NCBI GenBank assembly: GCA_032622095.1
Contig: CP136064.1
Coordinates: 216,394,205 to 216,458,204 of the forward strand
From: Siphonodentalium dalli
Taxonomy: Eukaryota; Mollusca; Scaphopoda; Gadilida; Siphonodentaliidae
Length of the DNA stretch: 64,000 nt
Direction: 5' to 3'
Both the position numbers and the translations under genes were made by a program. The notes under the pieces are model-generated. The model was not told where the DNA came from and did not search any database. It was given only the letters and a program-made list of their open reading frames with translations. The stretch's first letter is position 1, and the number at the start of each line of letters is the position of its first letter. Positions 5,602-58,183 of the stretch are shown in pieces.

Positions 5602-5818
5602 TACAGTAATGCCCTAAGTAATCGACTCCTTAACCACAGTATAATTATGGGTAACTTTTCAGGATTTAGTCGGAAATATGGCTTGTTGCCATTCATTGGA
5701 AAGCTCTCGGTGAGAGCTTTCTGATTAATGGCAACAAGCCATATTTCTGACTAAATCCTGCAAAGTTACCCATAATTCTGCTGTGGTTAAGGGGTCGATT
5801 ACTTAGGGCATTACTGTA
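5602..5818. mobile_element. Family A (Tc1/mariner-type) hairpin MITE, copy 1
   Basis: This is a nearly complete palindrome of 217 bases. It starts TA-CAGTAATGCCCTAA and ends TTAGGGCATTACTG-TA, so the ends are inverted and flanked by the dinucleotide TA, as in Tc1/mariner insertions. The arms continue inward through CCACAG, AATTATGGGTAA, GGATTTAGTCGGAAATATGG and TTGCCATTCAT to a short loop near 5700-5712. There is no coding capacity, so mobility would need a transposase from elsewhere. About 15 copies or parts occur in this window. Confidence 0.9.
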
Positions 5819-6681: not shown

Positions 6682-7125
6682 CAAGCATTGAAATAGTGTG
6701 TCTGTCATTTGCAGAATGAGGTCCCCATAGGGTGAATTTACTGATGCTACCCCGCACAGTGGGCTATCATCACCAAAGTTGCCAGTCTGGGAACCTCATT
6801 CTACTGAGGCCTACACTTCTATGGGAGACCTACCGATAGGATCAGATTAAGTTCCCCAGTTGATGTTGGTGATATTCACCTCGATTATTTGTTTTATCTT
6901 CTGCAAATTAGGGGATATAGAAACTGAACAGGAGGGGAAAAGTACATGTAACACAAAACAATGTTAATATGAGAATAAAGATCTATACGAGTACTTCCCA
7001 GAAAATGAGCCATAAGCATAATGAGGTCCCCAGAGGGTGAATTTAGTGATGCTAGCCTGCTGTCATTAAATTCACACTCTGGGGACCTCATTCTACAAAT
7101 GACAGACACACTATTTCAAGGCTTG
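6682..7125. mobile_element. Family B (hAT-type) MITE, copy 2
   Basis: A complete 444-base copy from CAAGCATTGAAATAG to CTATTTCAAGGCTTG. It is flanked by ACCACTAT (6674-6681) and CCCACTAT (7126-7133), an 8-base near-perfect target duplication, as expected for hAT transposition. Each arm carries a secondary hairpin with AGGGTGAATTTA-type sequence. Confidence 0.88.
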
Positions 7126-7206
7126 CCCACTATAAACATTGTTACCTGAAGTAACAGAGGTGCATGCCACTTTATGATATGTAGATACATCCAGGTATGT
7201 GTAGCT

Positions 7207-9893: not shown

Positions 9894-10150
9894 TAAATTT
9901 TATAACTGGATACTCACTGGCACAAACCTGGAAATACCATGTACAATGTAGTGTGTATGACATTTACAGAATGAGGTCCCCAGAGGGTGAATTTAGTGAC
10001 GCTGCCCCGCACCGCGTGTTAGCATGACTAACCCTGGGTAAATTTTATAACTGGATACTCACTGGCACAAACCTGGGAATACCATGTACAATGTAGTGTG
10101 TATGACATTTTCAGAATGAGGTCCCCAGAGGGTGAAGTTAGTGATGCTAT
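9894..10150 (+). repeat. 145-base tandem duplication across the left end of a family B element
   Basis: The segment starting TAAATTTTATAACTGG at 9894 is repeated from 10039, including flanking DNA, the family B terminus CAAACCTGG and the first part of its arm. The duplication therefore happened after the element inserted. Confidence 0.85.
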
Positions 10151-10535
10151 CCCACAAGGTGGACTAGCATAACCAATTCACCCTCTGGGAACCTGATTCT
10201 GCTTAGGCCTCAATGCTATGGGAGACCTAGGATCAGATTGAAGTTCCCCAGTTGATGTTGATGATGCTCACCCATTAGTCACCTCGATTAATATGCAATT
10301 TATCTTCTGCAAGTTTTGGGATATAGAAGCTGAACAGAAGGGAAAAAGTGAATGAAAAGAATGTTAATTTTAGATTGTAGATACTTCCCAGAAGATGAGG
10401 CCTAAGCAGAATGAGGTCCCCAGAGGGTATAGGTGAATTTGGTGATGATAGCCCACTCTGCAGGGTAGCATCACTAAATTCACCCTCTGGGGACCTCATT
10501 CTGCAAATGTCAGATACACTATATATCCAGGCTTG
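9923..10535. mobile_element. Family B (hAT-type) MITE, copy 3
   Basis: Left end CAAACCTGG, right end CCAGGCTTG. It is flanked by CACTGGCA (9915-9922) and CACTGGTG (10536-10543), an 8-base duplication with two mismatches. Length is inflated by the tandem duplication of its left end. Confidence 0.82.
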
Positions 10536-10851
10536 CACTGGTGGGTAATTACTTGGTTCCCATTCGTTTATTTCTAGAGATGCTCAGATAACAATTTTGG
10601 ACTTTAATAGACTAAAAGTGTTTGTTGAACTTTTTGGCTGAACTTCGCTATGAAAAAAAGAAAATGAATTAATTGTATGATTCTCTGCCTGTACATGTAG
10701 GCTTCTAATACATACCGGTACATGCACATGTATTTGTATCTGACAATTCCAATAAATCAGAGACCAGCAATCTTTTCCCTAAATGTGCCACTTCTCCATG
10801 TTTTTGTTCCAGGGAGAAGTTACTTCTCTCATATACCAATATTAATACAAG

Positions 10852-11068
10852 TACAGTAATGCCCTAAATAACCGACTCCTTTACCACAGCAGAATTATGG
10901 GTAATTTTTCAAGATTTAGTCGGAAATATGGCTTGTTGACATTCATCGGAAAGCTCTCAGTGAGAGCATTCCACTGAATGGCAACAAGCTATATTTCTGA
11001 CTTAATCCTGAAAAATTACCTATAATTCTGCTGTGGTTAAGGAGTCGATTATTTAGGGCATTACTGTA
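10852..11068. mobile_element. Family A MITE, copy 3, full length
   Basis: A complete 217-base TA-flanked hairpin with a GTGAG loop, inserted in family I sequence. Arms differ by a few substitutions. Confidence 0.9.
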
Positions 11069-12494: not shown

Positions 12495-12881
12495 TTAAAG
12501 GCATGGATGACCTTCGCGGTTGGTATTGCTGTTAAAATATTCACATCTGTTAAAACCGCCATAAACCTTAAGAATAATAAAATATTGACAAAGTTTGTGT
12601 TCTTATAGTAAGTTATACCAATCATACATGCACATATCTCATAAATAGTATGTTATTTTTAAGTTTGTGTGCTTTGTTATGTAAACAAAAGCCAAACAAG
12701 TTACAAAACCTTGTTTTTGTTTACATAACACAGCATACAAATTTGACAATAACATACTATTTGCTCGATATTTATGATTGGTGTAAGAACAAATATGTAA
12801 TATTCTTTCTGTTAATGGCAGTTCTAACAGGTGTGAATATTTTAACAGCATACCCAGGGCGAAGGCCATCAATGCCTTTAA
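12495..12881. mobile_element. Foldback element with TTAA borders and AGGCATGGATG ends
   Basis: Borders are TTAA (12495-12498 and 12878-12881). The left end reads AGGCATGGATGACCTTCGC and the right end is its inverse with two changes. Pairing continues inward: ACCAATCAT, AATAGTATGTTATT and TTATGTAAACAAAA all reappear inverted on the right side, so almost the whole 387 bases forms one hairpin. No coding capacity. The TTAA border suggests piggyBac-type mobilisation, but the end sequence differs from family C. Confidence 0.8.
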
Positions 12882-13590
12882 TATGGCACAAGATTACTTC
12901 TTGTAAATCATTGCCATGACTATCAGTGATGGCTTGATTGAGTATCAGTTTCCAATAAGCCCAGTTGGCACCACCTTGATTTCTATACAACTTCTTGATT
13001 CTTTTGAAGCATAGTAAAGGTGTGTTGACCTGATATAGCCTGGTAAGACCATTGATTTGTAGGAGCAGTACATAGACAGGCTCTCAACCACATACCATTG
13101 ACAACTATTCTGATTTAAGTGGATCATTATATCCTACATTCTACTAGAGGCTGGGCTGCTGACATTTTCTCCTCCACATATTGATATAGTTTTAACTCTT
13201 CACTAGTCACCAGGATGCTTTCAATAATATCGGTAGACTATGAAAATTGATTAGTTGTTTTCTCTTGCTATTACGGTATAAATATTGGATTATGTCCGTC
13301 CATCTGTCTGTCCTTGAATATGTGCATCTGTCACCACATCCACACTGATATCTCAGCCATGTTCTCTTTGGATTTCAATGAGATTTACTGCAGTGATTTC
13401 CCCATTAGAACTGTTATCAAAAGATCATTTTTCAGTGTTATTTGAATTTTCTTTTCTAGAGTTATCCTTCTTTGATCACTGAAAATTTGGATTTTTGTCC
13501 ATTTGCAGATTTCACAATCATGGTTCATATTATTGGCCTTTAAAAAAATGGTGCCATGTGCCATAGATTCTATTTCTTATTTAGTTTTGT
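12882..13590. other. Non-coding stretch with a decayed dispersed repeat
   Basis: From about 13280 the words ATGTCCGTCCATCTGTCTGTC and ATATCTCAGCCATG resemble the CCGTCC-type dispersed repeats elsewhere in the window. No gene is supported. Confidence 0.45.

Positions 13591-14154: not shown

Positions 14155-14197
<43 letters not shown>
14155..14197 (+). repeat. 43-base poly-G run
   Basis: An uninterrupted run of G from 14155 to 14197. Such a run can form G-quadruplexes and its length is probably unstable and prone to sequencing error. It lies 37 bases before a foldback element (14235). The ORFs reading through it as poly-glycine are artefacts. Confidence 0.95.
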
Positions 14198-15009: not shown

Positions 15010-15215
15010 TACAGTAATGCTCAAAGTAATCGACTTCTTAACCACAGCAGAATTATGGGTAACTTTTCAGGATTTATTCGGAAATATGGCTTGTTGCCAT
15101 TCATCGGGGAGAGCTTTCCGATGAATGGCAACAAGCCATATTTCCGACTAAATCCTGAAAAGTTGCCCATAATTCTGCTGTGGTTAAGAAGTCGATTACT
15201 TAGAGCATTATTGTA
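15010..15215. mobile_element. Family A MITE, copy 4
   Basis: A 206-base TA-flanked hairpin. The left end reads CAGTAATGCTCAAAGTAATC and the right end carries compensating-looking changes (GAGCATTATTG), with a short GGGGA loop. Confidence 0.88.
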
Positions 15216-24555: not shown

Positions 24556-24769
24556 TACAGTAATTCCCTAAATAATCGACTCCTTAACCACAGCAGAATT
24601 ACCCGTATCAGGATTTAGTCGGAAATGTGGCTTGTTGCCATTCAGTGGAAAGCTCTCTCTCTCAGAGCTTTCCGATGAATGTCAACAAACCATATTTCCG
24701 ACTAAATCCTGGAAAGTTACCCATAATTCTGCTGTGGTCAAGGAGTCGATTATTTAGGGGATTACTGTA
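24556..24769. mobile_element. Family A MITE, copy 6
   Basis: A TA-flanked hairpin of 214 bases with a CTCTCTCTCTC-rich loop. The left arm has lost several bases after AGAATTACCC. Confidence 0.88.
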
Positions 24770-27210: not shown

Positions 27211-27418
27211 TACAGTAATGCCCTAAATAATCGACTCCTTAACCACAGCAGAATTATGGGTAACTTTTCAGGATTTAGTCGGAAATATGGCTTGTTGCCA
27301 TTCATCGGAGTGAGAGCTTTCCGATGAATGGCAACAAGCCATATTTCCGACTAAATCCTGAAAAGTTACCCATAATTGTGCTGTGCTTAAGGAGTCGATT
27401 ATTTAGGGCATTACTGTA
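27211..27418. mobile_element. Family A MITE, copy 7, very intact
   Basis: A 208-base TA-flanked hairpin whose two arms are almost exact inverses, with only a short GAGTGAGAG loop. It is among the least diverged copies, so it is probably one of the youngest here. Confidence 0.92.
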
Positions 27419-28150: not shown

Positions 28151-28250
28151 TGAGAAAGATAAACTGTTATTGAAAGCGCTAGACCATTTATAGGATATTC
28201 AAGTAAATGAGTACACTGTCGGATACCCGTTTAGGTTCGGACTTTCCCAG

Positions 28251-28279
28251 ATGGCGGCGCCCACTAAAGCAGATAAACG
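28251..28279 (+). pseudogene. Possible captured first coding exon inside the inverted repeat
   Basis: An ATG in a GC-rich context opens MAAPTKADK and runs directly into CG|GTAAGT, a near-perfect splice donor. The same block appears inverted in the right arm (about 30521-30553). A short 5' exon ending in a consensus donor inside a transposon arm suggests either a captured gene start or the element's own spliced leader exon. No downstream exon was identified. Confidence 0.3.
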
Positions 28280-28639
28280 GTAAGTGTATATATTGTCTCC
28301 AAGCAGCAATCAACAACATCTTTCGGTGATACACCTTGAACCAGTTATGTAGGAATTTGTATGCCCAACACATACGTAACACGCCTTTCGCATGACAGGC
28401 ATGTGAATTGTTGTATTTGGCATGTCAAGTCGTCATAATGTTTCGAAATTTTATCGTATTGTTTTGGCCCTGGGCTCATGCATCCGCAAATTTATGTATT
28501 GTTGTGGGTAGATTAGGTCACCACACATCTTCGGAATGCAAAACCGGCGATATTTTTATTGTCTAACTCCGAAAAACGACCTTTGAAAATTTCAAAATGT
28601 CAGGTTCGGATTCACAACATTCGCGATGATTTTGTTCAG

Positions 28640-28695
28640 GTTCAGACACAATTTTCGTTCAGGTTCGGACAAATTTGGTTCAGGTTCGGACGCAT
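28640..28695 (+). repeat. Subterminal AGGTTCGGAC repeats (left arm)
   Basis: Tandem-like units of about 22 bases contain TTCAGGTTC(A/G)GACA, at about 28636, 28659 and 28680, with related copies near 28232 and 28602. The inverse set lies at 30063-30175. Repeated subterminal motifs often serve as transposase-binding sites, but that role is inferred here. Confidence 0.6.
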
Positions 28696-30599
28696 CAAAA
28701 ACTTCGCATAAAAATGACACGCCGAGGTACAGTCGCGTTCTTATTGCGTTTTTGTGCATTTTGTTATCTTCCATTCGTAAAAGAAACGATATATGGGGAA
28801 CACGAGGCATGGTTTTAGCCCACTCGTGAATTTGGGCGGACTTTCTTATTTTATGCGTGTGAGATGTATGCGATCACGTGATTCCCCTCCACATCCACAT
28901 ACGATGCCACGAAGGTCACCGCATGTTGATTAGCAGATAACTGTCCATAATATAAGTTACACGGTTTTTTGAGGGGGGATACTGCGTGGTATGCCCCGGT
29001 AGAGGCTCGTATCCCCCGAGGCGATCCCCCCTCAACAAGCCGTGTAATGATGTATTTACCCCCCAGTCTCTATTAACAATATATTCCCAGACAAAAAGCG
29101 CAGAAACGAGCCACGAACAGTAACTCTATTTTGTTAGATTGCTTATACGGTGAATGTGATTACTCTCGGGGTCCAAATGAGCATACGGTGCGGAATAAGA
29201 GTACAGGATGGACAATTCTGCTAAATCCAATAAGAGTACGGGGCAGAATAACAGTACAGGGTGGAAATTTCCAACATGGAAGCAAGTCCATCTGAAATGC
29301 TACATGTATATACAGTCAATCATATATATTTCTAAAATTTTGCACTGTTTGTTGTCATAGGAGTTACCAAACAGACTTCCGGCAACATGTTTGAACTATC
29401 TGTTCCTTATCTGAATGAAGGCTCCAGCAATTCTGATAGGCCTGTAGTATAAATTTCTTGACAATCCCACTATATAAATAAACATACAGACCCAAATAAG
29501 CACCATACAGGGCGGCAACTTTTCCAAAAATTAATAAGCATATGGGTATGCGTATTTGGATCCCAAGAGTATATAGCTGTTCCCACAATTTGCCCATAAA
29601 TACTTGCTGGCCTCGCTAACTTAAAAACAAATATATGTTAGTGGATATAAAATGGGGCAATATATTTCACAAAAATAATGACAAATAATTCGGACATCCT
29701 GAGTAAATGAGGCATGAATAACACGATAACCAGCACACCAGAAATTAACTTGGCTTTGCATGATGTACTTTCGGACGTTCAATTTTTGTGGGCTAATTTC
29801 AGTTTCACAAGGGCGTAAGAGATTGTTTTTACCCTTGTATATAGCGACGACATTTTGTGCAGGTTAATACGATATAATTGTTTCCTGTTTAGTTAACATA
29901 ATTATGTCGAACAAGAACACCGGGATACTTATAATTCTAGATTACAATCAATTTCAGCTGACATATTTAGACATAACAAATTAACAATGCATGTTCGTTA
30001 ATAACACGCACAATAAGATCGCGACTGCACCTCGGCATGTCATTTATAGGTAAGGTTTTGATGCGTCCGAACCTGAACTAAAATTGTCCGAACCTGAACC
30101 AAATTTGTCCGAACCTGAACGAAAATTATGTCTGAACCTGAACAAAATCATCGCGAATGTTGCGAATCCGAACCTGAACATTTTGAAAATTTCAAAGGTC
30201 GTTTTTCGGAGTTAGACAATAAAAATATCGCCGGTTTTGCATTCCGAAGATGTGTGGTGATCTAATCTACCCACAACAATACATAAATTTGCGGATGCAT
30301 GAGCCCAGGGCCAAAAAAATACGAAAAAGCGGACATTTCGCCGCCTCGATATAATTTCGAAAAATTATGACGACTTGACACGCCAAATACAACAATTCAC
30401 ATGCCAGTCATGCGAAAGGCGTGTTACGTATGTGTTGGGCAAACAAATTCCCACATAACTGGTTCAAGGTGTATCACCGAAAGATGTCGTTGATTGCTGC
30501 TTGGAGACAATATATACACTTACCGTTTATCTGCTTTAGTGGGCGCCGCCATCTTGGAATGTCCGAACCTAAATGGGTATCCGACAGTGGAGTACCTCC

Positions 30600-39648: not shown

Positions 39649-40089
39649 CAAGCCTGGAAAAAATGTGTCTGACATTTGCAGAATAAGGTCCCCAAAGGGT
39701 GAATTTAGTGACTATCCCGCACAGCAGGCTAGCATCACCAAGTTCACCATCTGGGACCTCATTCTGCTTTAGGCCTCAACTGCTATGGGAGTACTAGGAT
39801 CAGATTGAAGTTCCCCATTTGATGTGGTGATGTTCACCCAGTAATCACCTCGATTATGCATTTTATCTTCTGCAAATTAGGCGACAAGAAACTGACAGAA
39901 GGGAAAAAGTATCTAAAAACAAGGTTAATTTGAGATTATAGATACTTCCCAGAAGATGAGGCCTAAGCAGAATGAGGTCCCCAGAGGGTGAATTTGGTGA
40001 TGCTAGCTCGCTGTGCGAGGTAGCATCACTAAATTCTCATTCTGGGAACCTCATTCTGCCAAATGTCAGACACATTATACCCAGGCTTG
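39649..40089. mobile_element. Family B (hAT-type) MITE, copy with perfect target duplication
   Basis: A 441-base element from CAAGCCTGG to CCAGGCTTG, flanked by an exact 8-base duplication GTTAAAAG (39641-39648 and 40090-40097). This is the best evidence that family B uses a hAT-type transposase. The core reads in the standard orientation (TTATCTTCTGCAAATTAGG). Confidence 0.93.
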
Positions 40090-43130: not shown

Positions 43131-43886
43131 TTATCTCAATTTTCTGAAGGCTAATTTTAGAAATATACTCACCCTCTTCAGGAGCGATATATTAGCTATA
43201 GATATCAAACCATAAAACTTTTCTCGCGTTGGAGATAGCCAATAGTATTTTGGAATGAACTGTTCACGGATATCTCTAAATTCGTCGCATATCAGTAGGA
43301 GATGATACTCGTCCCCTATCCCGTTACCGCACTGTTCACAGGTATTACAAGGTATACTGTTTCGCCACCGCCTTTTTTCAACGGGGAGTCGGTGGTTGGC
43401 TGTTCTAAATTTCACCATATAAGGGATAAGATGATCTGGCAACTGAAGCAAATACCGGCTAATACAGGGGCTGGTTTTAATATTTCTGTAAAAAGTTGCT
43501 CTTGACGAATCAGATAATTCTAAATCGATAAAAAGTTTAGCCCAATGCTGCTCTATAAGAAAGGTCTTAATATTGCGAATGTCCTGTTTAGATAAAGCAG
43601 ACTGTGACTCCCATATAGAACGTAGATCAAGTTCATTCAGGGTGTTTGTCACAAAGTTAAGCCATTTTGACTTGCGTGTTAACTTGGGATCGTTGGCGTG
43701 TAATTGCTTTACAATAAGATATATGTTCTTAGCCAGTTCTGATCCATCGCTAGATACAATTTTTGACCAATAAGTTAACACTCTGCACTTTATTTCCACT
43801 AAAATGGGATGTCTACCAAGTTCTCCGTACACCATATAATTAGGTGTACTAGATTTCATGCCTAGTAATATTTTACAAAATTTCAT
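43131..43886 (-). pseudogene. LINE reverse transcriptase protein, C-terminal 251 residues
   Basis: The frame starts MKFCKILLGMKSSTPNYMVY, continues through GELGRHPILVEIK, and carries FRTANHRLPVEKRRW at residues 160-174, a pattern I know from the C-terminal region of non-LTR retrotransposon ORF2-type proteins. A zinc-binding pattern follows: C183, C186, H195 and C200 (spacing CxxC-8-H-4-C), with C180 nearby. Endonuclease and polymerase domains are absent because the copy is 5' truncated; an in-frame TGA precedes the first Met. The open 251 codons suggest a fairly recent insertion. The exact clade is not determined. Confidence 0.8.
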
Positions 43887-44860: not shown

Positions 44861-45303
44861 CAAACCTGGATATAGTGTGTCTGACATTTGCATAATGAGG
44901 TCCCCAGAGGGTGAATTTAGTGACGCTATCCTGCACAGTGGGCTAGCATCATCAAATTCACCCCTGGGAACCTCATTCTGCTTAGGCCTCAATTGCTATG
45001 GGAGACCTTGGATCAGATTGAAGTTCCCCAGTTGAAGTTTGTGATGTTCACCCATTAGTCACTTTGATTATTCAATTTATCTTCTGCAAATTAGAGGATA
45101 TAGAAACTGAACAGAAAGGAAAAAGTAACTAAAAGCAATGTTAATTTGAGATATAGATACTTCCCAGAAGACGAGGCCTAAGCAGAATGAGGTCCCCAGA
45201 AGTTGAATTTGGTGATTCTAACCCACTGTGCTGGATAACATTACTAAATTCACCCTTTGGGGACCTCATTCTGCAAATGCTAGACACACTATTTCCAGGC
45301 TTG
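44861..45303. mobile_element. Family B MITE, copy at 44.9 kb
   Basis: A 443-base copy from CAAACCTGG to CCAGGCTTG with standard core order. The 8-base flanks (ATTCCCCA, CGACCATT) do not match, so the target duplication is lost or the end is misplaced. Confidence 0.8.
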
Positions 45304-48300
45304 CGACCATTTGTCGTTTCTTGAACTTATTTATTATCTGAACATTTCCCACCAATGCTCTTTTATAATCTGTTTGTATGTCTGCTGTCTGCTTTTATTA
45401 CCTGAACACCCCTCCTGATGAATAATAGGCCATTCCAATGTATACTTTTGTGAGTGAATGGGAGAATACATTCAGTATAGAAAGCATTAAGGGGAGATAA
45501 CCCCTGCTTGGAGTTGCTTTGGTCTGCCCATTCCATCTGGGCCATACATTAAAGCCACATGGCGGTTTGCACTCCTAAATACACATACAATGTAATATTA
45601 TTCGCTTTTGAATTTATTTTTCTCTGTATCGAAATAGGTCGATAAATATATGAACTACCTTTCTGAGAGCATTATTTCTTTTGCCCAATAAGACTCTGAC
45701 ACTAAAGTTATGAAAAATACAACTATGAACATTGTGTTTGGGTAAACAAACAAAAAACAGCCATTTGCATGACATAGAACGGAAAAGAGTGTCTATTCTT
45801 GATATGGAAACAAAGAGCGTTTGTCTAACTTCTGGCAAAAAATTGAAAATGGCTGGAATATATATGGCTGCTACGTGTTTTTAGAGCATATGAAGCCGGT
45901 ATATGAATATTTTGTGTATTTATCGACCTATCACATCCGTCACTCCAAATCACGTCGACAAAATTTGTAGGTTCAAATTAGCCATGTCCTTTTAAGTTCT
46001 ATTTTGGCTAAAGAAATATAAACAGTGTGCACATTGAAAAATAAACTTGTTTATGAAATGACAGTCCCACTTCCAATGATCTACTTTGATCTGGTAGTGT
46101 TTGGGTTGGATGGAGACCAACCCTGACTGGAAAAAAAAAACAGCTGACATTACCGGTTAGCTGATGTCATAGAGACACACTCTTAATGTTTTACCAATTT
46201 ATATTGTCAGTGCATGGTATGTGCATCAGTGCATAAAGAAGAATTCATTCAGGCTGCTGGCCAAATGTAACAATTCATTAGGGAAACTTACTTACAAACA
46301 TGTCGGGAGTACACATGTGTAAATTAGGTGATGATGCAATCACTTACGATCTTGTAAACATATTCATGATAAGCAAAAATATAGAACTACTTAAGAAGCT
46401 TGATTGTCTTGCATAACATTGTCTATCTCTGGAGGGATGGGCTATCTGACACGCTTAATTGGCAACGCACTCATTAATTAGCGATGCAGTGCATACTGAT
46501 ATAACCTGTTGCACGTGTCTGGCTGCAGGTTGAAATGGTATAGGAATAATCTCATTTATTTACCCTTACTGTCAAGCAACGCGGTTTTGTTTTTTGCTCT
46601 TTGATAGTGTTGATCTCATCTGAATATTGCACTTACAATATGATGACGTTAATATCAACTGGCTTTGATCAATCATATCGCTGACTTTTTACCTGATCTA
46701 AGGTGTCACCAATTGACTGCTTTGTTAGCTGCGTTCCACTCCTATAGAGTGTTGAATGATTGAGGCATCTGAATTAATGTCCTAGTGTCGTACAACCTGT
46801 TCATAAAAGTGATAGTTGGCAGTTTTTCTTTCAAATTTGTTTTCACAATGAAACCTTACAGTGAAGTGAATCTGGAGGATTATCAAATTCTGTTATGTCT
46901 TTCAAGTTTCCGACATATAGGCCTACATGTATTCAACTATGGAAATTTTGGATACCATTCTGCTACTATGTGAGTATAATATTATCAAGGTGGCGCTCAC
47001 ATGACAATTTTTCCAACTATCAGAGAAATCTCAGCTCTTGAAATTCAATTGACTGGATGTCATGGACAGGCATTAGTGTTAAACTCAGCATCTTTTATTG
47101 AAACAAACAAAAACTAAAACTAATAGTGTGATCTAGTACTTATTGGATAAATAGTTCAAATCTAGTTTTTTGTTGTCCATAAAACTGTTTTTCTCCTCAA
47201 AACCAGTTCTAAAGAAGAAATAAAAAAAAAAATTCTCATAATGTCATCTCTTGAAAAACCAATGGATATCCCATCGGTAGTTGATTTCCATATCTTTCTA
47301 ATGAATCTATTAGTAGTATCTCTGCTATTAGTTTGTGGATCACATAGCTTTATTTTTGGAAGATTCAGGAATGTGGATTTTTTTTCAAATTATAAACTTA
47401 ATTATATAAAAATAAACTTGGGGTAATTCCAATTCACATGTGATGATATATATGACTATTAGTGCTGGCAAGAATAAATGCAAAAAATAATATTTGCCCA
47501 CCTGCCTTCGCCTGACCCAATTTAGAAGAAATTTTTTTAATTTATTTTGTTGTGACGTAATATATCTTTAATGTTTATTGTTTGTAAGTTTTCAGTATTT
47601 AGACTCTGGATGCAATTAAAATAGTAATTCTAAGTTATAAAAAACAGGCCAGGGCAAAATAATTACAAAGCCGTGTCTCTTTGGAAATTTTCTCAGAAGA
47701 AAATTGGACTAAAGTTAACTAAAACAGCCAGTACTGAATGCTTTGGTGGCTTTAAGTTCTTGTGTAAATGCATGCGCATGTATTGACATATCACAGTGGT
47801 CATTAGTTTCACCTGATCTACACCTGTGGATAATACAGGTTTCTCAATCCCAGCTAACGAGCCTGCACACCTTGTCCTAATAATGCAGGCACAGGTGAAT
47901 TAGCTATCAACAGTATGATATAACACAGATCAGCATCTGCAGGTTAATCCCGCCTGTGGCCACCTTGATCATGGCTATCCGATGAAGTCTTGTTTGTACT
48001 AATATATCAAATAGCTTTCATCCCTAACACTACAGTGAACTTCTCCACATAATGTCAACCTATATTTCTGCTTTATACTGCCCCAGTATTTTTCATTCTC
48101 TCTTTATATATAAGTAGGTTGTTCAGTTTACAAGTTTCCTCTATAGTGTAGTGACAGCTCTCTGTCCCCAATCATATTGGACTGCACACTGTCTCAGAAT
48201 GGATGAGGAATGGTTGTGTGTGCATGACGTTCAACGTTCCCGTTTTCGCAGGATGTTTTTGAACAAGGAATTTTTCACATAATTGGATACCGAACATATA

Positions 48301-49869: not shown

Positions 49870-50087
49870 TACAGTAAATGCCCTAAATAATCAACCCCTT
49901 AACCACAGCAGAATTATGGGTAATTTTTCAGGATTTAGTCGGAAATATGGCTTGTTGCCATTCATCGGAAAGCTCTCAGTGAGAGCTTTCCGATGAATGG
50001 CAACAAGCCATATTTCTGACAAAATCCTGAAAAATTACCCATAATTCTGCTGTGGTTAAGGAGTTGATTATTTAGGGCATTGCTGTA
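49870..50087. mobile_element. Family A MITE, full length
   Basis: A TA-flanked 218-base hairpin (CAGTAAATGCCC at the left, GGGCATTGCTG at the right) with GTGAG loop; it ends 12 bases before the target duplication of the next family B copy. Confidence 0.9.
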
Positions 50088-50107: not shown

Positions 50108-50534
50108 CAAGCCTTGAAATAGTGTGTCTGTCATTTGCAGAATGTAGTCCCCAGAGGGTGAATTTAGTGATGCTACCCCGCACAGCAGGCTAGCATCACC
50201 AAATTTACCCACTGGGAACCTCATTCTGCTGAGGCCTCAACTGGTATGGGAGACCTAGGATCAGATTGAAGTTCGCAGTTGAAATTGCTGATGCTCACCC
50301 ATTAGTCACCTCAATTATGTATTTCGTCTTCTGCAAATTAGGGGACATAGAAACTGAACAGAGGGGAAGAAAATACTAAAAACAATGTTAATTTTAGACT
50401 ACAGATACTTCCCAGCAGAATGAGATCCTCACAGGGTGAATGTAGTGATTCTAGTTCATTGTGCCGGGTAGCGTCACTAACTTTACCCTCTGGGGACCTC
50501 AATCTGCAAATGACACACACAATTTCAAGGCTTG
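50108..50534. mobile_element. Family B (hAT-type) MITE with near-perfect target duplication
   Basis: A 427-base copy flanked by GCAATGAT (50100-50107) and GCAATAAT (50535-50542). Termini CAAGCCTTG and CAAGGCTTG are exact inverses. Confidence 0.9.
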
Positions 50535-50569
50535 GCAATAATTTCTTCAAAGTCTCTTTGAAGAGAACC

Positions 50570-50760
50570 CAAGAGGGAGTTGTCAGTAGCTCAGTCGGTA
50601 AGGTGCAGTCTGCCATAAGCCATCCAGCGATGGACAGCAGGTTCGATTCACAGTGAACACAGATTTGTGATCCATACAAAGGGCAGATAGGGGGACTTTT
50701 TTTCCCCAGCGAAAGTAATATTCTTTGCGGTATTTCCTCTACCAAATAAATGGTATTATA
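50570..50760 (+). mobile_element. tRNA-derived SINE
   Basis: A box A-like TAGCTCAGTCGG (50587-50598) and a box B-like GGTTCGATTCA (50640-50650) lie about 40 bases apart, as in RNA polymerase III promoters. The cloverleaf is not well formed, so this is not a functional tRNA. The body continues with TAGGGGGACTTTTTTTCCCC and CTCTACCAAATAAATGG to about 50760. The 3' end is not certain. Confidence 0.65.
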
Positions 50761-52189
50761 TTGCCTAGCAGCTGAAATGACGATAAACTCTAACAAGCCA
50801 AACCAAAGTCTGTATGTATGAGCCCAGGTTAAATACGATGAAGGTACATGGTCCAAATATAAAACTGGAGTCTGTGATATGTGAAGTCCGCTTTAAAATT
50901 GAATTCAAAATGTGTCATCAGAGAACAATTATTGAAATTGATGAGAATGAAACTATATTGGTTATGAACTATGATGCCACACTGCTTTTCATTATGCAAT
51001 TGTTTTTCGACACAAATTGACAATACCTAATGCATGAATGACAGGCTGGTATCATATTGAGACTGTTTAATATGATGATGACCTGTAATGGTACATGTAG
51101 TTAATTACTCAATTAATCATTAGGCACCGATTGATCATTTGATGTTATACCTTCAAGTGGGATGTTGTTGCATTTTACATTCCATTCAAACTCATTTATG
51201 ACATGTTGAATGATTATGCTGTCCAATTAGCTTCAACAATCAATGGTGCCAGCTATTTGACAGGAACATAACTATCAACTCAGAATTCCAATTATTTATT
51301 AATTGTTTTAAATTTTAAAGTTTGAATATACATGTAGGGGGCATGTGCCCAGGGACATAGTGAAAGAGTGGGTTTGGAGGAGGGCCTGTCTTACCCCTGA
51401 CCTTTGGCCAAAATTTTCAGCACTTGGAAATTTCATCCCTGATGCAACATAAGTTGGAAATTTCAGCCATGTGGAAAGGGGATGTTAGGTTGGAATTTTC
51501 CAATCATTGGATAGTTTGAGGTACCAACTCAAGGAGGTGGGGGCAAATGGAATTTGTCGGATATGGAAATTTTCAGTCTGGTTCAAGGGGGAGTGATGGG
51601 AGCTGAGCTGCAGTTGGAAATTCTAAGATAGACACCCCACCCCAAAAGCGACCCCTAGCCACATCCCTGCATGTGATCCAAACATACTGAACTGTAGGTC
51701 AGGATTCATTAATAGCTGAGTGCCCTCTCAATTTTTTCTGAAAGTTTGCCCTTATGAAGTCATGTAGCTTTCTTCGTCCACTGGCTCGTTGTTGTAACCA
51801 ACACATTTCACACAGGGCGGCCATTGAGATGTCAGAAGTGCCCCACTTCCCTCATAGCATTGCACTGAAATTCATTGATAAATGTTTTATGGGTTCAAAT
51901 GCACTAGTCTCGAAGCCCCTTGTGACCCCTGAGTGTGTGGCCTTTTGTTATCTTCTGTATTGTTATATGTCATCTTCACAGACTTTGACACACCCAAGCA
52001 ATTCAAGAAAACTTGTTGTTTGTAGCAACCATTCCGGAACATTTGATTTTTCAAGATATTCTAACAATGGTTCCATAGGTTGTTCCAAGCTGATCAAAAG
52101 AATTGTCCTTATTCAATGAAAATTTTCTTGTAAAATCCATTGCTAGAACATTATTTTAATATAGTTTACCTACAAGTATATAATGAATC
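50761..52189. other. Non-coding stretch with imperfect GGAAATTTCAG repeats
   Basis: Around 51420-51620 the words TTGGAAATTTCAG and GGAAATTTTC recur about five times, suggesting a decayed local repeat. CAGGGACATAG near 51353 and ACATCCCTGCATG near 51661 bracket this segment. The 121-codon ORF at 51754-52119 shows no recognisable family and is left uncalled. Confidence 0.45.
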
Positions 52190-53760
52190 ACCCTAGGTCA
52201 TAGTATATTATAGCAGAACCACCATATATTAGGTCATGACATTGCAGGACCACCTAAGTTCATGACATAGCAGGTTCACCAAAGGTCATGGCATTATACC
52301 ATATCAGCGCCGCCTAAGGTCGTAGAATTGTAGCAGGACTGCCCAAGGTCGTAGCATTGTAGCAGGACAAACCAAGGATATAACTTTATATCATAGCAGG
52401 GCCACTGATGGTCATATGATAGCATTATTAGCAGGACAACTCAAGGTGATAACATATCATAGCAGGGCCACCCATGGTCATACGATAGCATTATTAGCAG
52501 GACAACTCAAGGTACTAGCATTATTGCAGGACTAACCAAGGTCATAACATTATATCATAGCATGGCCACCCATGGTCATACGATAGCATTATTAGCAGGA
52601 CAACCCAAGGTTCTAGCATTATTGCAGGACTATATAACCAAGGTCATAACATTATATCATAGCAGGGCCACCCATGGTCATACGATAGCATTATTAGCAG
52701 GACAACTCAAGGTACTAGCATTATTGCAGGACTAAACCAAGGTCATAACATTATATCATAGCATGGCCACCCATGGTCATACAATAGCATTATTAGCAGG
52801 ACAACCCAAGGTTCTAGCATTATTGCAGGACTATATAACCAAGGTCATAACATTATATCATAGCAGGGCCACCCATGGTCATACGATAGCATTATTAGCA
52901 GGACAACTCAAGGTACTAGCATTATTGCAGGACTAAACCAAGGTCATAACATTATATCATAGCATGGCCACCCATGGTCATACAATAGCATTATTAGCAG
53001 GACAACTCAAGGTACTAGCATTATTGCAGGACTAAACCAAGGTCATAACATTATATCATAGCATGGCCACCCATGGTCATACGATAGCATTATTAGCAGG
53101 ACAACCCAAGGTTCTAGCATTATTGCAGGACTATATAACCAAGGTCATAACATTATATCATAGCAGGGCCACCCATGGTCATACGGTAGCATTATTAGCA
53201 GGACAACCCAAGGTACTAGCATTATTGCAGGACTAACCAAGGTCATAACATTATATCATAGCATGGCCACCCATGGTCATACAATAGCATTATTAGCAGG
53301 ACAACTCAAGGTACTAGCATTATTGCAGGACTATATAACCAAGGTCATAACATTATATCATAGCAGGGCCACCCATGGTCATACGATAGCATTATTAGCA
53401 GGACAACTCAAGGTACTAGCATTATTGCAGGACTAAACCAAGGTCATAACATTATATCATAGCATGGCCAATCATGGTCATACGATAGCATTATTAGCAG
53501 GACAACCCAAGGTTTTAGCATTATTGCAGGACTATATAACCAAGGTCATAACATTATATTATAGCAGGGCCACCCATGGTCATACGATAGCATTATTAGC
53601 AGGACAACTCAAGGTACTAGCATTATTGCAGGACTAAACCAAGGTCATAACATTATATCATAGCATGGCCACCCATGGTCATACGATAGCATTATTAGCA
53701 GGACAACTCAAGGTACTAGCATTATTACAGGACTAACCAAGGTCAAAACACAGCAGAACC
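52190..53760 (+). repeat. Compound satellite, 98-102-base units
   Basis: From about 52541 the block GGTCATAACATTATATCATA recurs at intervals of 102, 99, 102, 99, 99, 102, 98, 102, 99, 102, 99 and 98 bases. Two subtypes largely alternate: one with GACTATATAACC at the junction and AGCAGGGCCACC, the other with GACTAAACC and AGCATGGCCACC. Each unit is itself about three degenerate copies of a 30-33-base motif (GCATTATTAGCAGGACAAC-like). The left part (52190-52540) is more degenerate and shows the short period directly. Confidence 0.93.
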
Positions 53761-53827: not shown

Positions 53828-54275
53828 CATAGTATTAAAGCAGGACCACCAAAGTACAGAGCATTATAGTTGGACCACCACAGTACACATAGTATTAAAG
53901 CAGGACCACCAAAGTACATAGCATTATAGTTGGACCACCACAGTACACATAATATTAAAGCAGGACCACCAAAGTACATAGCATTATAGTTGGACCACCA
54001 CAGTACACATAGTATTAAAGCAGGACCACCAAAGTACATAGCATTACCGGTATAGTTGGACCACCACAGTACACATAGTATTAAAGCAGGACCACCAAAG
54101 GCCATAGCATTATAGTTGGACCACCACAGTACACATAGTATTAAAGCAGGACCATCAAAGGCCATAGCATTATAGTTGGACCACCACAGTACACATAGTA
54201 TTAAAGCAGGACCACCAAAGTACATAGCATTATAGTTGGACCACCACAGTACACATAACATAATAGCAGGACCAC
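53828..54275 (+). repeat. Satellite of 60-base units adjoining the previous one
   Basis: About seven units of GTATTAAAGCAGGACCACCA plus AAGTACATAGCATTATAGT and TGGACCACCACAGTACACAT. One unit carries a 6-base insertion (ACCGGT) and three carry GGCCATAG in place of TACATAG. Because 60 is divisible by 3, a minus-strand frame stays open for 155 codons as a 20-residue repeat; I regard that as a by-product. Confidence 0.93.
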
Positions 54276-56164
54276 CATTTTGAAGGTGTAACATTTTTGA
54301 AGAAATATGTATGGATCAATGTGGGTATATGGGTGACCATTCAAACTGCCAACTTTCCATGAGATAACTCATGTCAACTATTAAAAGGGAAATAAATCTG
54401 AAAAAATTTGTTTTATTTCTGTTAAAAGCAAATTGAGCTATGTCTTCCTAGTTTTATGTTCAAAGCAGATATCTATCTGAAATTATCCAGGATATTTGAA
54501 TAATTCATATTTCATTGTAATTTAATCACTTAAAACTCAAATAATGGAAATTAACAAGATTTATTCAAACATATGTAGATGTGTCTGGCTTCCGTAAATT
54601 CAAGGGAAGACATGGGGATATCGGCGTAGCACACTTCACACAACAGTTTGTTCCATTTTGAGTCACATATTTGGTTATTTTACACACATGGCTGGGCCTA
54701 TATACATGTATATATTAGCCTGGTGATAATCTCCATTTTATACACAAAATGACTGTACAAATTGAATAACTCCAAGACCAAAGTATAATCATTAACGGGG
54801 AATAATTCCCCAAAAGGGCATCACTATCAGATTGGGCATTGTTCAGTATTTGAGATTTTACATAACACTAATTGTATGTAAGCTAACTGATGTATCCAAT
54901 TGTGGATGTGAGATTTTCATGAAGATCTCCTGTGAGCGAAACAGGCATCAGGCAGTTGTAAAGGAAAAATGTAAGCACATTACCAAACAATCACAACATG
55001 CAGTCAACTGGTGGGCAAATGAAATTATCCATTTTCACTTATTTTAACTTTAAGAGGCTATATTTTATTTTTTATTTTATAAAAAATTCTCCATCTGATC
55101 TACCCACTTATTTTAATTTTGCACATCTCAAAGCCCATTATAATAATGCATCAACAGTCATCCTGTAATACATAGCCTTCTACATGTATGTTGTTTTGGA
55201 CTGGAAACTGGATATTTGCACAGAAAGTCCAATTCAAAACTCGCTAGTTGACTTGAATTTACCTCCTTTTTACAGTAGTCTTATACAATGAAAACAAGTG
55301 TTTGAAACCTGTAATTTCGACCCACAATCCTCACCACTGATCAATGACCCTGCTAAATTACAATGTGGTCATGTTTATGTGATATTGTCACCATAAAATT
55401 ATGTGATTATGATTCTTCAAATAGTGTTCTGCACTAAAATTTAACAAGTTCATCTTGAATTTTCCTGTTTGATGGGGGCGGCAATTTTGCATGTGACCTC
55501 CGTTTTTTTTCTCCAGGGGATTCCCAATTTTAGTAGATCCATATATTATATTAAAAAAAATAAAAAAAAATACGTAAGTTCTTACTTTATATATAAATTA
55601 ATTCTTGTATATAAACTAGAAATTTTTAATAATATCATATTTGTGTGTGTTTTCATACAATTATTATCAAAATGAAAGGCCTTGAAACCCAGGCGATATA
55701 TCGGCCCTGGCACTTTAGCTAAGTAACATCAGGCACTGAAAGAGTTAAGTTAATAAGTTAAACTCATGATTAACCCAGTCTTTGAATTGGTTTTCACCAT
55801 TTAGCAGCGGAGATATGTGGAACAATTAACAACCAATTATCAGTCCCAATTAAAAATAATTTTCTGAACAATTAATCTTGGGTCAGTGGATCAAATCAGT
55901 AAAGATTTCCTTGTTGAAAGTTGCATAGGTAAATGTCAATGTAAATTGTTGCATTGTATTATTTGTATGCTGATTCATTAACATTAGGCACAGGTACAAT
56001 ACAAGTTAGTGGAAGATCTGTCCCTGATGTAATCATGACCTTAATAGTAAGTTCTCATTAATAGCGCTCCACCTTTACAATGCATATCATAAACCTGTAG
56101 GACAAGTAAATAAATGTTAGGTGAATACTATTAACCCATTCTTTGCTAAATACTAATTTACGAG
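54276..56164. other. Non-coding stretch
   Basis: No gene seen. At 55733-55746 GGCACTGAAAGAGTTAA resembles a lone right end of a piggyBac-like element (compare GGCAGCGAAAGAG at 60498). AT-rich tracts lie around 55060-55090 and 55550-55640. Confidence 0.45.
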
Positions 56165-57966: not shown

Positions 57967-58183
57967 TACAGTAATGCCCTAAATAATCGACTCCTTAACC
58001 ACAGCATAATTATGGGTAATTTTTCAGGATTTAGTCGGAAATATGGCTTGTTGCCATTCATCGGAAAGCTCTCGGGGAGAGCTTTACGATGAATGGCAAC
58101 AAGCCATATTTCCGATTAAATCCTGAAATATTACCCATAATCCTGCTGTGGTTAAGGAGTCGATTATTTAGGGCATTACTGTA
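57967..58183. mobile_element. Family A MITE, full length
   Basis: A TA-flanked 217-base hairpin with GGGGAGAG loop, beginning about 20 bases after the family I copy. Confidence 0.9.

Follow-up and report, generated by a model that had tools for sequence, protein, structure and literature searches.

A cleanly bounded, long-armed non-autonomous DNA transposon with inward-pointing boxes, probably of the broad CA..TG group

Within the window, i.e., the whole 64-kb stretch of Siphonodentalium dalli DNA that was analysed, positions 28214-30589 correspond to a real, cleanly bounded, non-autonomous cut-and-paste DNA transposon of 2376 bp, present in the window as a single copy according to blastn. 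With a single copy visible, neither the status of a family nor the duplication length as a rule is demonstrated; the element is probably an ordinary passenger, assigned to the broad CA..TG group (CMCT) but to no particular lineage within it. The explanation that appears best supported, and which we consider probable, is that of a non-autonomous CMCT transposon trans-mobilised by an autonomous relative.

In the first instance, the borders are exact on both sides. Sequence comparison revealed a left terminal inverted repeat of 15 bp, namely CACTGTCGGATACCC (28214-28228, forward strand), and on the right its exact reverse complement of the same length (30575-30589, reverse strand), the termini reading CACTG...CAGTG. 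Immediately outside, GAGTA is perfectly repeated at 28209-28213 and 30590-30594, and the match between the flanks ends at these five bases. The first-pass annotation, made from the sequence alone, was thus right about the exact inverted ends, the perfect five-base duplication of GAGTA and the CAC-starting ends of a non-autonomous transposon with terminal inverted repeats, the longest stop-to-stop frame within the element being 93 aa. A search of the window with the two flanks joined, meant to detect an empty paralogous site, returned nothing beyond these flanks and one 24-bp piece.

How often such borders arise by chance was estimated in 40 windows simulated with a first-order Markov model. 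At spacings of 200-6000 bp, they contained 28 perfect 15-bp inverted pairs, none of the 28 with a 5-bp flanking duplication. This control replaced one admitting overlapping pairs (palindromes), where 29 pairs were found in five shuffled windows, one with a 5-bp repeat. The actual window comprises 988 such 15-mer pairs, the overlapping 15-mers of long inverted repeats each being counted singly, and only two exhibit a 5-bp duplication, i.e., the element itself and a pair at 6708/10507, both ends of which lie within copies of a dispersed repeat. A looser scan (CAC..GTG ends, 14 bp, up to two mismatches, flank match of at least three bases) returned 19 rows, 15 of them being cross-pairings of repeat copies flanked by AATT, and the other four corresponding to flanks AATATT (one) and CTG (one), the element, and an inner arm pair at 28262/30541, whose flank GGCGCC matches only because it is its own reverse complement. 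As flank matches thus occur among the repeats of the window, a flank match by itself is not proof, and more weight falls on the precise termination at the two ends.

The dispersed repeat, of about 440 bp, occurs in at least five copies (6682-7126, 10091-10536, 39649-40089, 44861-45304 and 50108-50534), with 79-86% identity among the matches listed. Besides, the window contains seven near-perfect palindromes of 206-218 bp (5602-5818, 10852-11068, 15010-15215, 24556-24769, 27211-27418, 49870-50087 and 57967-58183), whose ends read TACAGTAAT.. on both sides with small variations; if TA is read as the duplication, they resemble a snap-back MITE of the mariner type. Two tandem arrays, at 52420-53750 and 53828-54277, are built of units of about 99/201 bp and of 60 bp, respectively, with GCAGGAC in both, and a run of 43 G lies at 14155-14197.

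The arms of the element, as delineated by blastn and MAFFT alignment, extend over 533 bp on the left (28214-28746, forward strand) and 579 bp on the right (30011-30589, reverse strand), the right arm containing an additional box unit and a 25-bp block that the left one lacks; described at first as unusually long arms of some 500 bases, they proved slightly longer still. The main blastn alignment between them covers 504 columns, of which 464 are identical (92%), 26 are gap columns and 14 are mismatches, and a second piece (69 columns, 88%), shifted by one box unit, extends the homology to 28746 and 30011. In the global MAFFT alignment, identity reaches 94-100% in each of ten 50-column bins to column 500, the 25-bp block unique to the right arm excepted; over the following two bins, in which a 20-column gap marks roughly one additional box unit of the right arm, it is 0.67 and 0.83, and it drops to 0.36 and 0.50 past column 600. 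Between the arms, blastn, the frame list and Pfam leave a middle of 1264 bp (28747-30010) without inverted counterpart or recognisable coding capacity. It includes a hairpin of 91 bp (28957-29047) with 24-bp arms that are 92% complementary (DNA fold of 28940-29070, z -5.69), which is possibly a nested insertion.

Regarding coding capacity, ten of the 34 element frames of at least 40 aa were submitted to Pfam, namely ten of the 11 longest, the one omitted (28215-28424) being the left-arm counterpart of a scanned frame; none gave a match above the family cut-off, and the weak matches below it were to DUF2740 (E 0.1) and a cytochrome domain (E 0.045). Eight of the ten window frames of at least 110 aa were likewise submitted and gave nothing above the cut-off either, the weak matches being to DDE_Tnp_1_assoc for 12581-12919 (E 0.17) and to Gin for 50338-50892 (E 0.38), and a search of the whole window against Rfam returned no match at gathering scores. 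Elsewhere in the window, a minus-strand open frame of 251 codons (43131-43886), with a sub-threshold match to a reverse-transcriptase zinc finger (E 0.065), is perhaps a retrotransposon fragment.

Both arms carry a short repeated motif, the AGGTTCGGAC box, already noticed near the ends in the first-pass annotation and here found to be restricted to the arms. At up to one mismatch, 11 copies are present (seven exact, four with one mismatch), five in the left arm and six in the right, every one pointing inward, and none is found outside the element on either strand of the window; in 500 mono-nucleotide shuffles of the element, the mean number of boxes was 0.08 and the maximum two. By pattern scan, the outermost boxes lie 20 bp from the left end (28233-28242, forward strand) and 20 bp from the right end (30561-30570, reverse strand). 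The others form subterminal clusters, i.e., (i) four boxes on the left (28602-28691, forward strand), starting at 28602, 28638, 28661 and 28682 with steps of 36, 23 and 21 bp, and (ii) five boxes on the right (30065-30175, reverse strand), with inward steps of 36, 23, 21 and 21 bp. Counted from the ends, the boxes stand at 20, 389, 425, 448 and 469 bp on the left and at 20, 415, 451, 474, 495 and 516 bp on the right. Steps of 21 to 23 bp amount to about two DNA turns and would suit protein-binding sites on one face of the helix.

The arms further share an exon-like stretch of 29 nt, which opens with ATG (MAAPTKADK..) and is followed by GTAAGT. In the left arm, this candidate exon occupies 28251-28279 (forward strand), with GTAAGT at 28280-28285, and overlaps an ATGGCGGC box, which we take to be a YY1-like motif; in the right arm, it occupies 30524-30552 (reverse strand), with the putative donor GTAAGT at 30518-30523. 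The ATG lies at position 38 from the end in each arm, and ATGGCGGCG...GTAAGT is common to both. On the right, the ATG is embedded in CAAGATGGC, 34-42 bp from the right end, with the context CCAAGATGGCGG, a good start context that also resembles a YY1 site; the left arm has C for A three bases upstream of the ATG. The 29-nt stretch from ATG to GTAAGT may represent the first exon of the parent transposase, a reading suggested by one short open stretch together with GTAAGT, a hexamer which occurs 34 times in the window (21 and 13 on the two strands). The absence of differences between the arms at positions 36-101, for an overall 14 mismatches in 478 compared bases, was rejected as evidence for an exon because another identical run, at columns 330-400, exceeds it; identity over positions 36-101 is not exceptional in that light.

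According to the explanation considered best, an autonomous relative located elsewhere in the genome would supply the transposase in trans. This transposase would bind both the 15-bp ends and the AGGTTCGGAC boxes, the presumed binding sites being the one box 20 bp from each end and the clusters some 390-525 bp in; after excision, the element would be inserted at a staggered cut, presumably of exactly 5 bp, which leaves the GAGTA repeat. As for the long arms, the 5' end of the parent, including promoter, exon and binding sites, may have been duplicated onto the other end, and the arms would be long because each holds the promoter, the first exon and both sets of binding sites of the parent.

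In the available text of PMC12730594, where Lanisha is also named, the CMCT group is characterised by mostly 5'-CA..TG-3' ends and 2-5 bp duplications, and the CMCT clade by a DDE transposase with C(2)C and H(3-4)H motifs. The element shares with that clade its CA..TG termini and, for this single copy, a duplication within 2-5 bp, but the copy is without transposase. For Academ, the duplication is given as 3 bp (PMC5199201); a literature search on Academ with XPG, TSD and transposase found no paper. Within CMCT, it is the duplication length that decides, but with one copy it decides poorly. Taking a base-match chance of 0.266 in the window and the flanks as independent, exactly five matching flank bases in one copy have a probability of 0.73 under a 5-bp rule, 0.20 under a 4-bp rule, 0.05 under a 3-bp rule and 0.014 under a 2-bp rule. 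As such, the initial idea that a five-base duplication separates Transib/RAG from its neighbours finds no support in that form, since a 4-bp family yields the same flanks in 20% of cases and a 3-bp family in 5%. Among the possible placements, the EnSpm/Chapaev side is the one we would tentatively put first, an origin outside the group takes up the remainder and is rather doubtful, Transib/RAG is unlikely, and the other CMCT lineages together are less likely again.

A place on the CACTA/EnSpm-Chapaev side, where the fifth and perhaps the fourth and third matching bases would be due to chance, is a narrower version of the best explanation that can be put forward with caution only. En/Spm-type elements exhibit subterminal arrays of a short repeated motif, and both the CACTG ends and the array of 11 short boxes in the subterminal regions agree with such a placement, the element having in common with En/Spm-type CACTA transposons the initial CACT and, inward of each end, clustered short repeats that resemble binding sites. 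It differs from them by its longer arms, arms above 500 bp being unusual for CACTA, by a longer apparent duplication and by boxes all in one orientation relative to the end. While duplications measure 2-3 bp in CACTA/EnSpm and 4 bp in Chapaev, the observed flanks keep a probability of 0.20 under a 4-bp rule and 0.05 under a 3-bp rule, but the flanks of this copy favour a 5-bp rule over one of 4 bp by a factor of 3.8 and over one of 3 bp by a factor of 14; moreover, no transposase was found in the element.

Somewhat doubtful is an origin outside CMCT, either in an undescribed lineage or as a long-armed foldback or MULE-like element starting with CAC by chance. Arms exceeding 500 bp would agree with it, but target duplications of MULEs are of 8-11 bp and the flank match of the element stops at five. 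It could also be argued that no described family with these ends appeared in the literature matches listed or in the viral and prokaryotic pattern scans, but such an absence means little, as the searches covered viral and prokaryotic collections, not Repbase or eukaryote genomes. In these scans, the terminal pattern combined with the box gave no hit in viral_contigs, the terminal pattern none in genome_contigs, and the exon-like pattern none in viral_contigs; the left arm (28214-28750) had no match among phages at an E limit of 0.01. The bare 15-mer pattern returned 36 stretches, several repeating one another, and these were treated as chance: none exhibited a box at position 20 in the printed bases (60, fewer at contig ends), a loosely similar inverted end (up to four mismatches in 15) was present in five of the 36, though none of these five had matching flanks, and a blastn comparison of the element with the whole set of 36 was negative at E 0.01. 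The box-pair pattern retrieved one viral and one bacterial stretch, both sharing one 15-bp tandem repeat within DNA that is richer in GC; their similarity to the element was limited to short words (best E 0.017). Literature searches with CACTGTCGG and with AAGATGGCGGC gave, among the matches listed, no paper on transposons by title.

The other narrower version of the best explanation, i.e., a non-autonomous member of a Transib/RAG-like lineage moved by a transposase of the Transib or RAG1L type, is unlikely, though several features are in line with it. The ends start with CAC and match the RSS heptamer (CACAGTG) and ProtoRAG TR1 (CACTATG) each at five of seven positions; as far as the available text of PMC8289069 goes, positions 4-6 of the ProtoRAG heptamer are not stringently required, but G is preferred at position 7, where the element has C. 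Five matching flank bases are likeliest under a 5-bp rule (0.73), and the duplications of protostome RAG-like transposons are reported as invariably 5 bp (PMC7204232, in part); against this, GAGTA is 2/5 GC and the duplications of ProtoRAG, Transib and RAG lean GC (PMC8289069, in part). The two ends of the element are alike, a symmetry shared by most Transib families, which show little or no similarity to the nonamer (same portion of PMC8289069). For that reason, little weight attaches to the fact that, in inward orientation, the nonamer ACAAAAACC is absent at up to two mismatches from the terminal 60 bp of each arm (one at three, at position 50). An interpretation of the heptamer, the box and their 12-bp gap as a 12-RSS was rejected because the box is unlike the nonamer and the gap is the same at both ends.

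The consensus CACTWMCAAACKTYKBB, that of protostome RAG-like elements and not Transib's own (PMC7204232, available text), is missed at eight of 17 positions on the left and nine of 17 on the right. From the same text, the element shares with these transposons the CAC start, T4, C7, A10, the five-base flanking repeat and the existence of non-autonomous forms, but it has GGA at positions 8-10 where the consensus keeps AAA, A8 and A9 being missed, and it exhibits arms above 500 bp and neither RAG1L nor RAG2L. This misfit argues against the protostome RAG-like elements described so far and bears less on Transib as a whole; the ends of N-RAG-TP were not found among the literature matches listed.

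In amphioxus ProtoRAG, as described in the accessible part of PMC8289069, a second signal, TR5, reads GCCATCTTG; its position, calculated from the 7-bp TR1 and the spacers of 27/31 bp, is 35-43 in the 5' TIR and 39-47 in the 3' TIR. The element resembles ProtoRAG in the five of seven heptamer positions and in CAAGATGGC, the reverse complement of TR5, at a nearly equal distance from the ends (34-42 bp, exact on the right, with one mismatch on the left); it differs by the C at heptamer position 7, by the opposite orientation of the TR5-like word and by its two ends being alike in spacing. This coincidence was given little weight because the word is inverted, was noticed post hoc and recurs as an exact 9-mer three more times in the 64 kb; it may be a promoter word. 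Against a Transib placement one may also set a survey of molluscs (PMC10294476), in which Transib accounted for one of 14,275 elements and two CMC were among the curated consensus sequences. Of the first proposal, the CAC ends, the five-base repeat and the long arms are borne out; kinship with Transib/RAG, the protostome RAG-like consensus being missed at eight to nine of 17 positions, is a reasonable hypothesis, possible and neither established nor excluded by the tests run.

Far less probable is a Transib/RAG offshoot with symmetric compound ends, made of the heptamer, a 12-bp gap and a lineage-specific AGGTTCGGAC box in place of the nonamer, with the TR5-like CAAGATGGC doubling as the translation start of the first exon; as both arms carry the candidate exon, the parent would then have two inward, convergent genes, like RAG1L-RAG2L transposons. 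An inverted segmental duplication would account for arms that are long and inverted but can hardly be credited, given the exact CAC..GTG ends with a flanking duplication (seen in none of 28 chance pairs) and the box arrays confined to the arms.

Returning to a trans-mobilised CMCT transposon as the preferred reading, the well-preserved element constitutes, by its 15-bp ends and box array, a clean probe for locating the autonomous partner. Were it of the RAG lineage, its ends would represent a new architecture within the group that gave rise to V(D)J recombination, and, in the case of the offshoot, a RAG-type signal element would be coupled to both the start codon and the promoter of the transposase gene. 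More generally, the arms may show why some elements have long inverted repeats, as these could house a promoter and a first exon; the exon reading predicts inward transcription from both ends, which might lead to double-stranded RNA and silencing.
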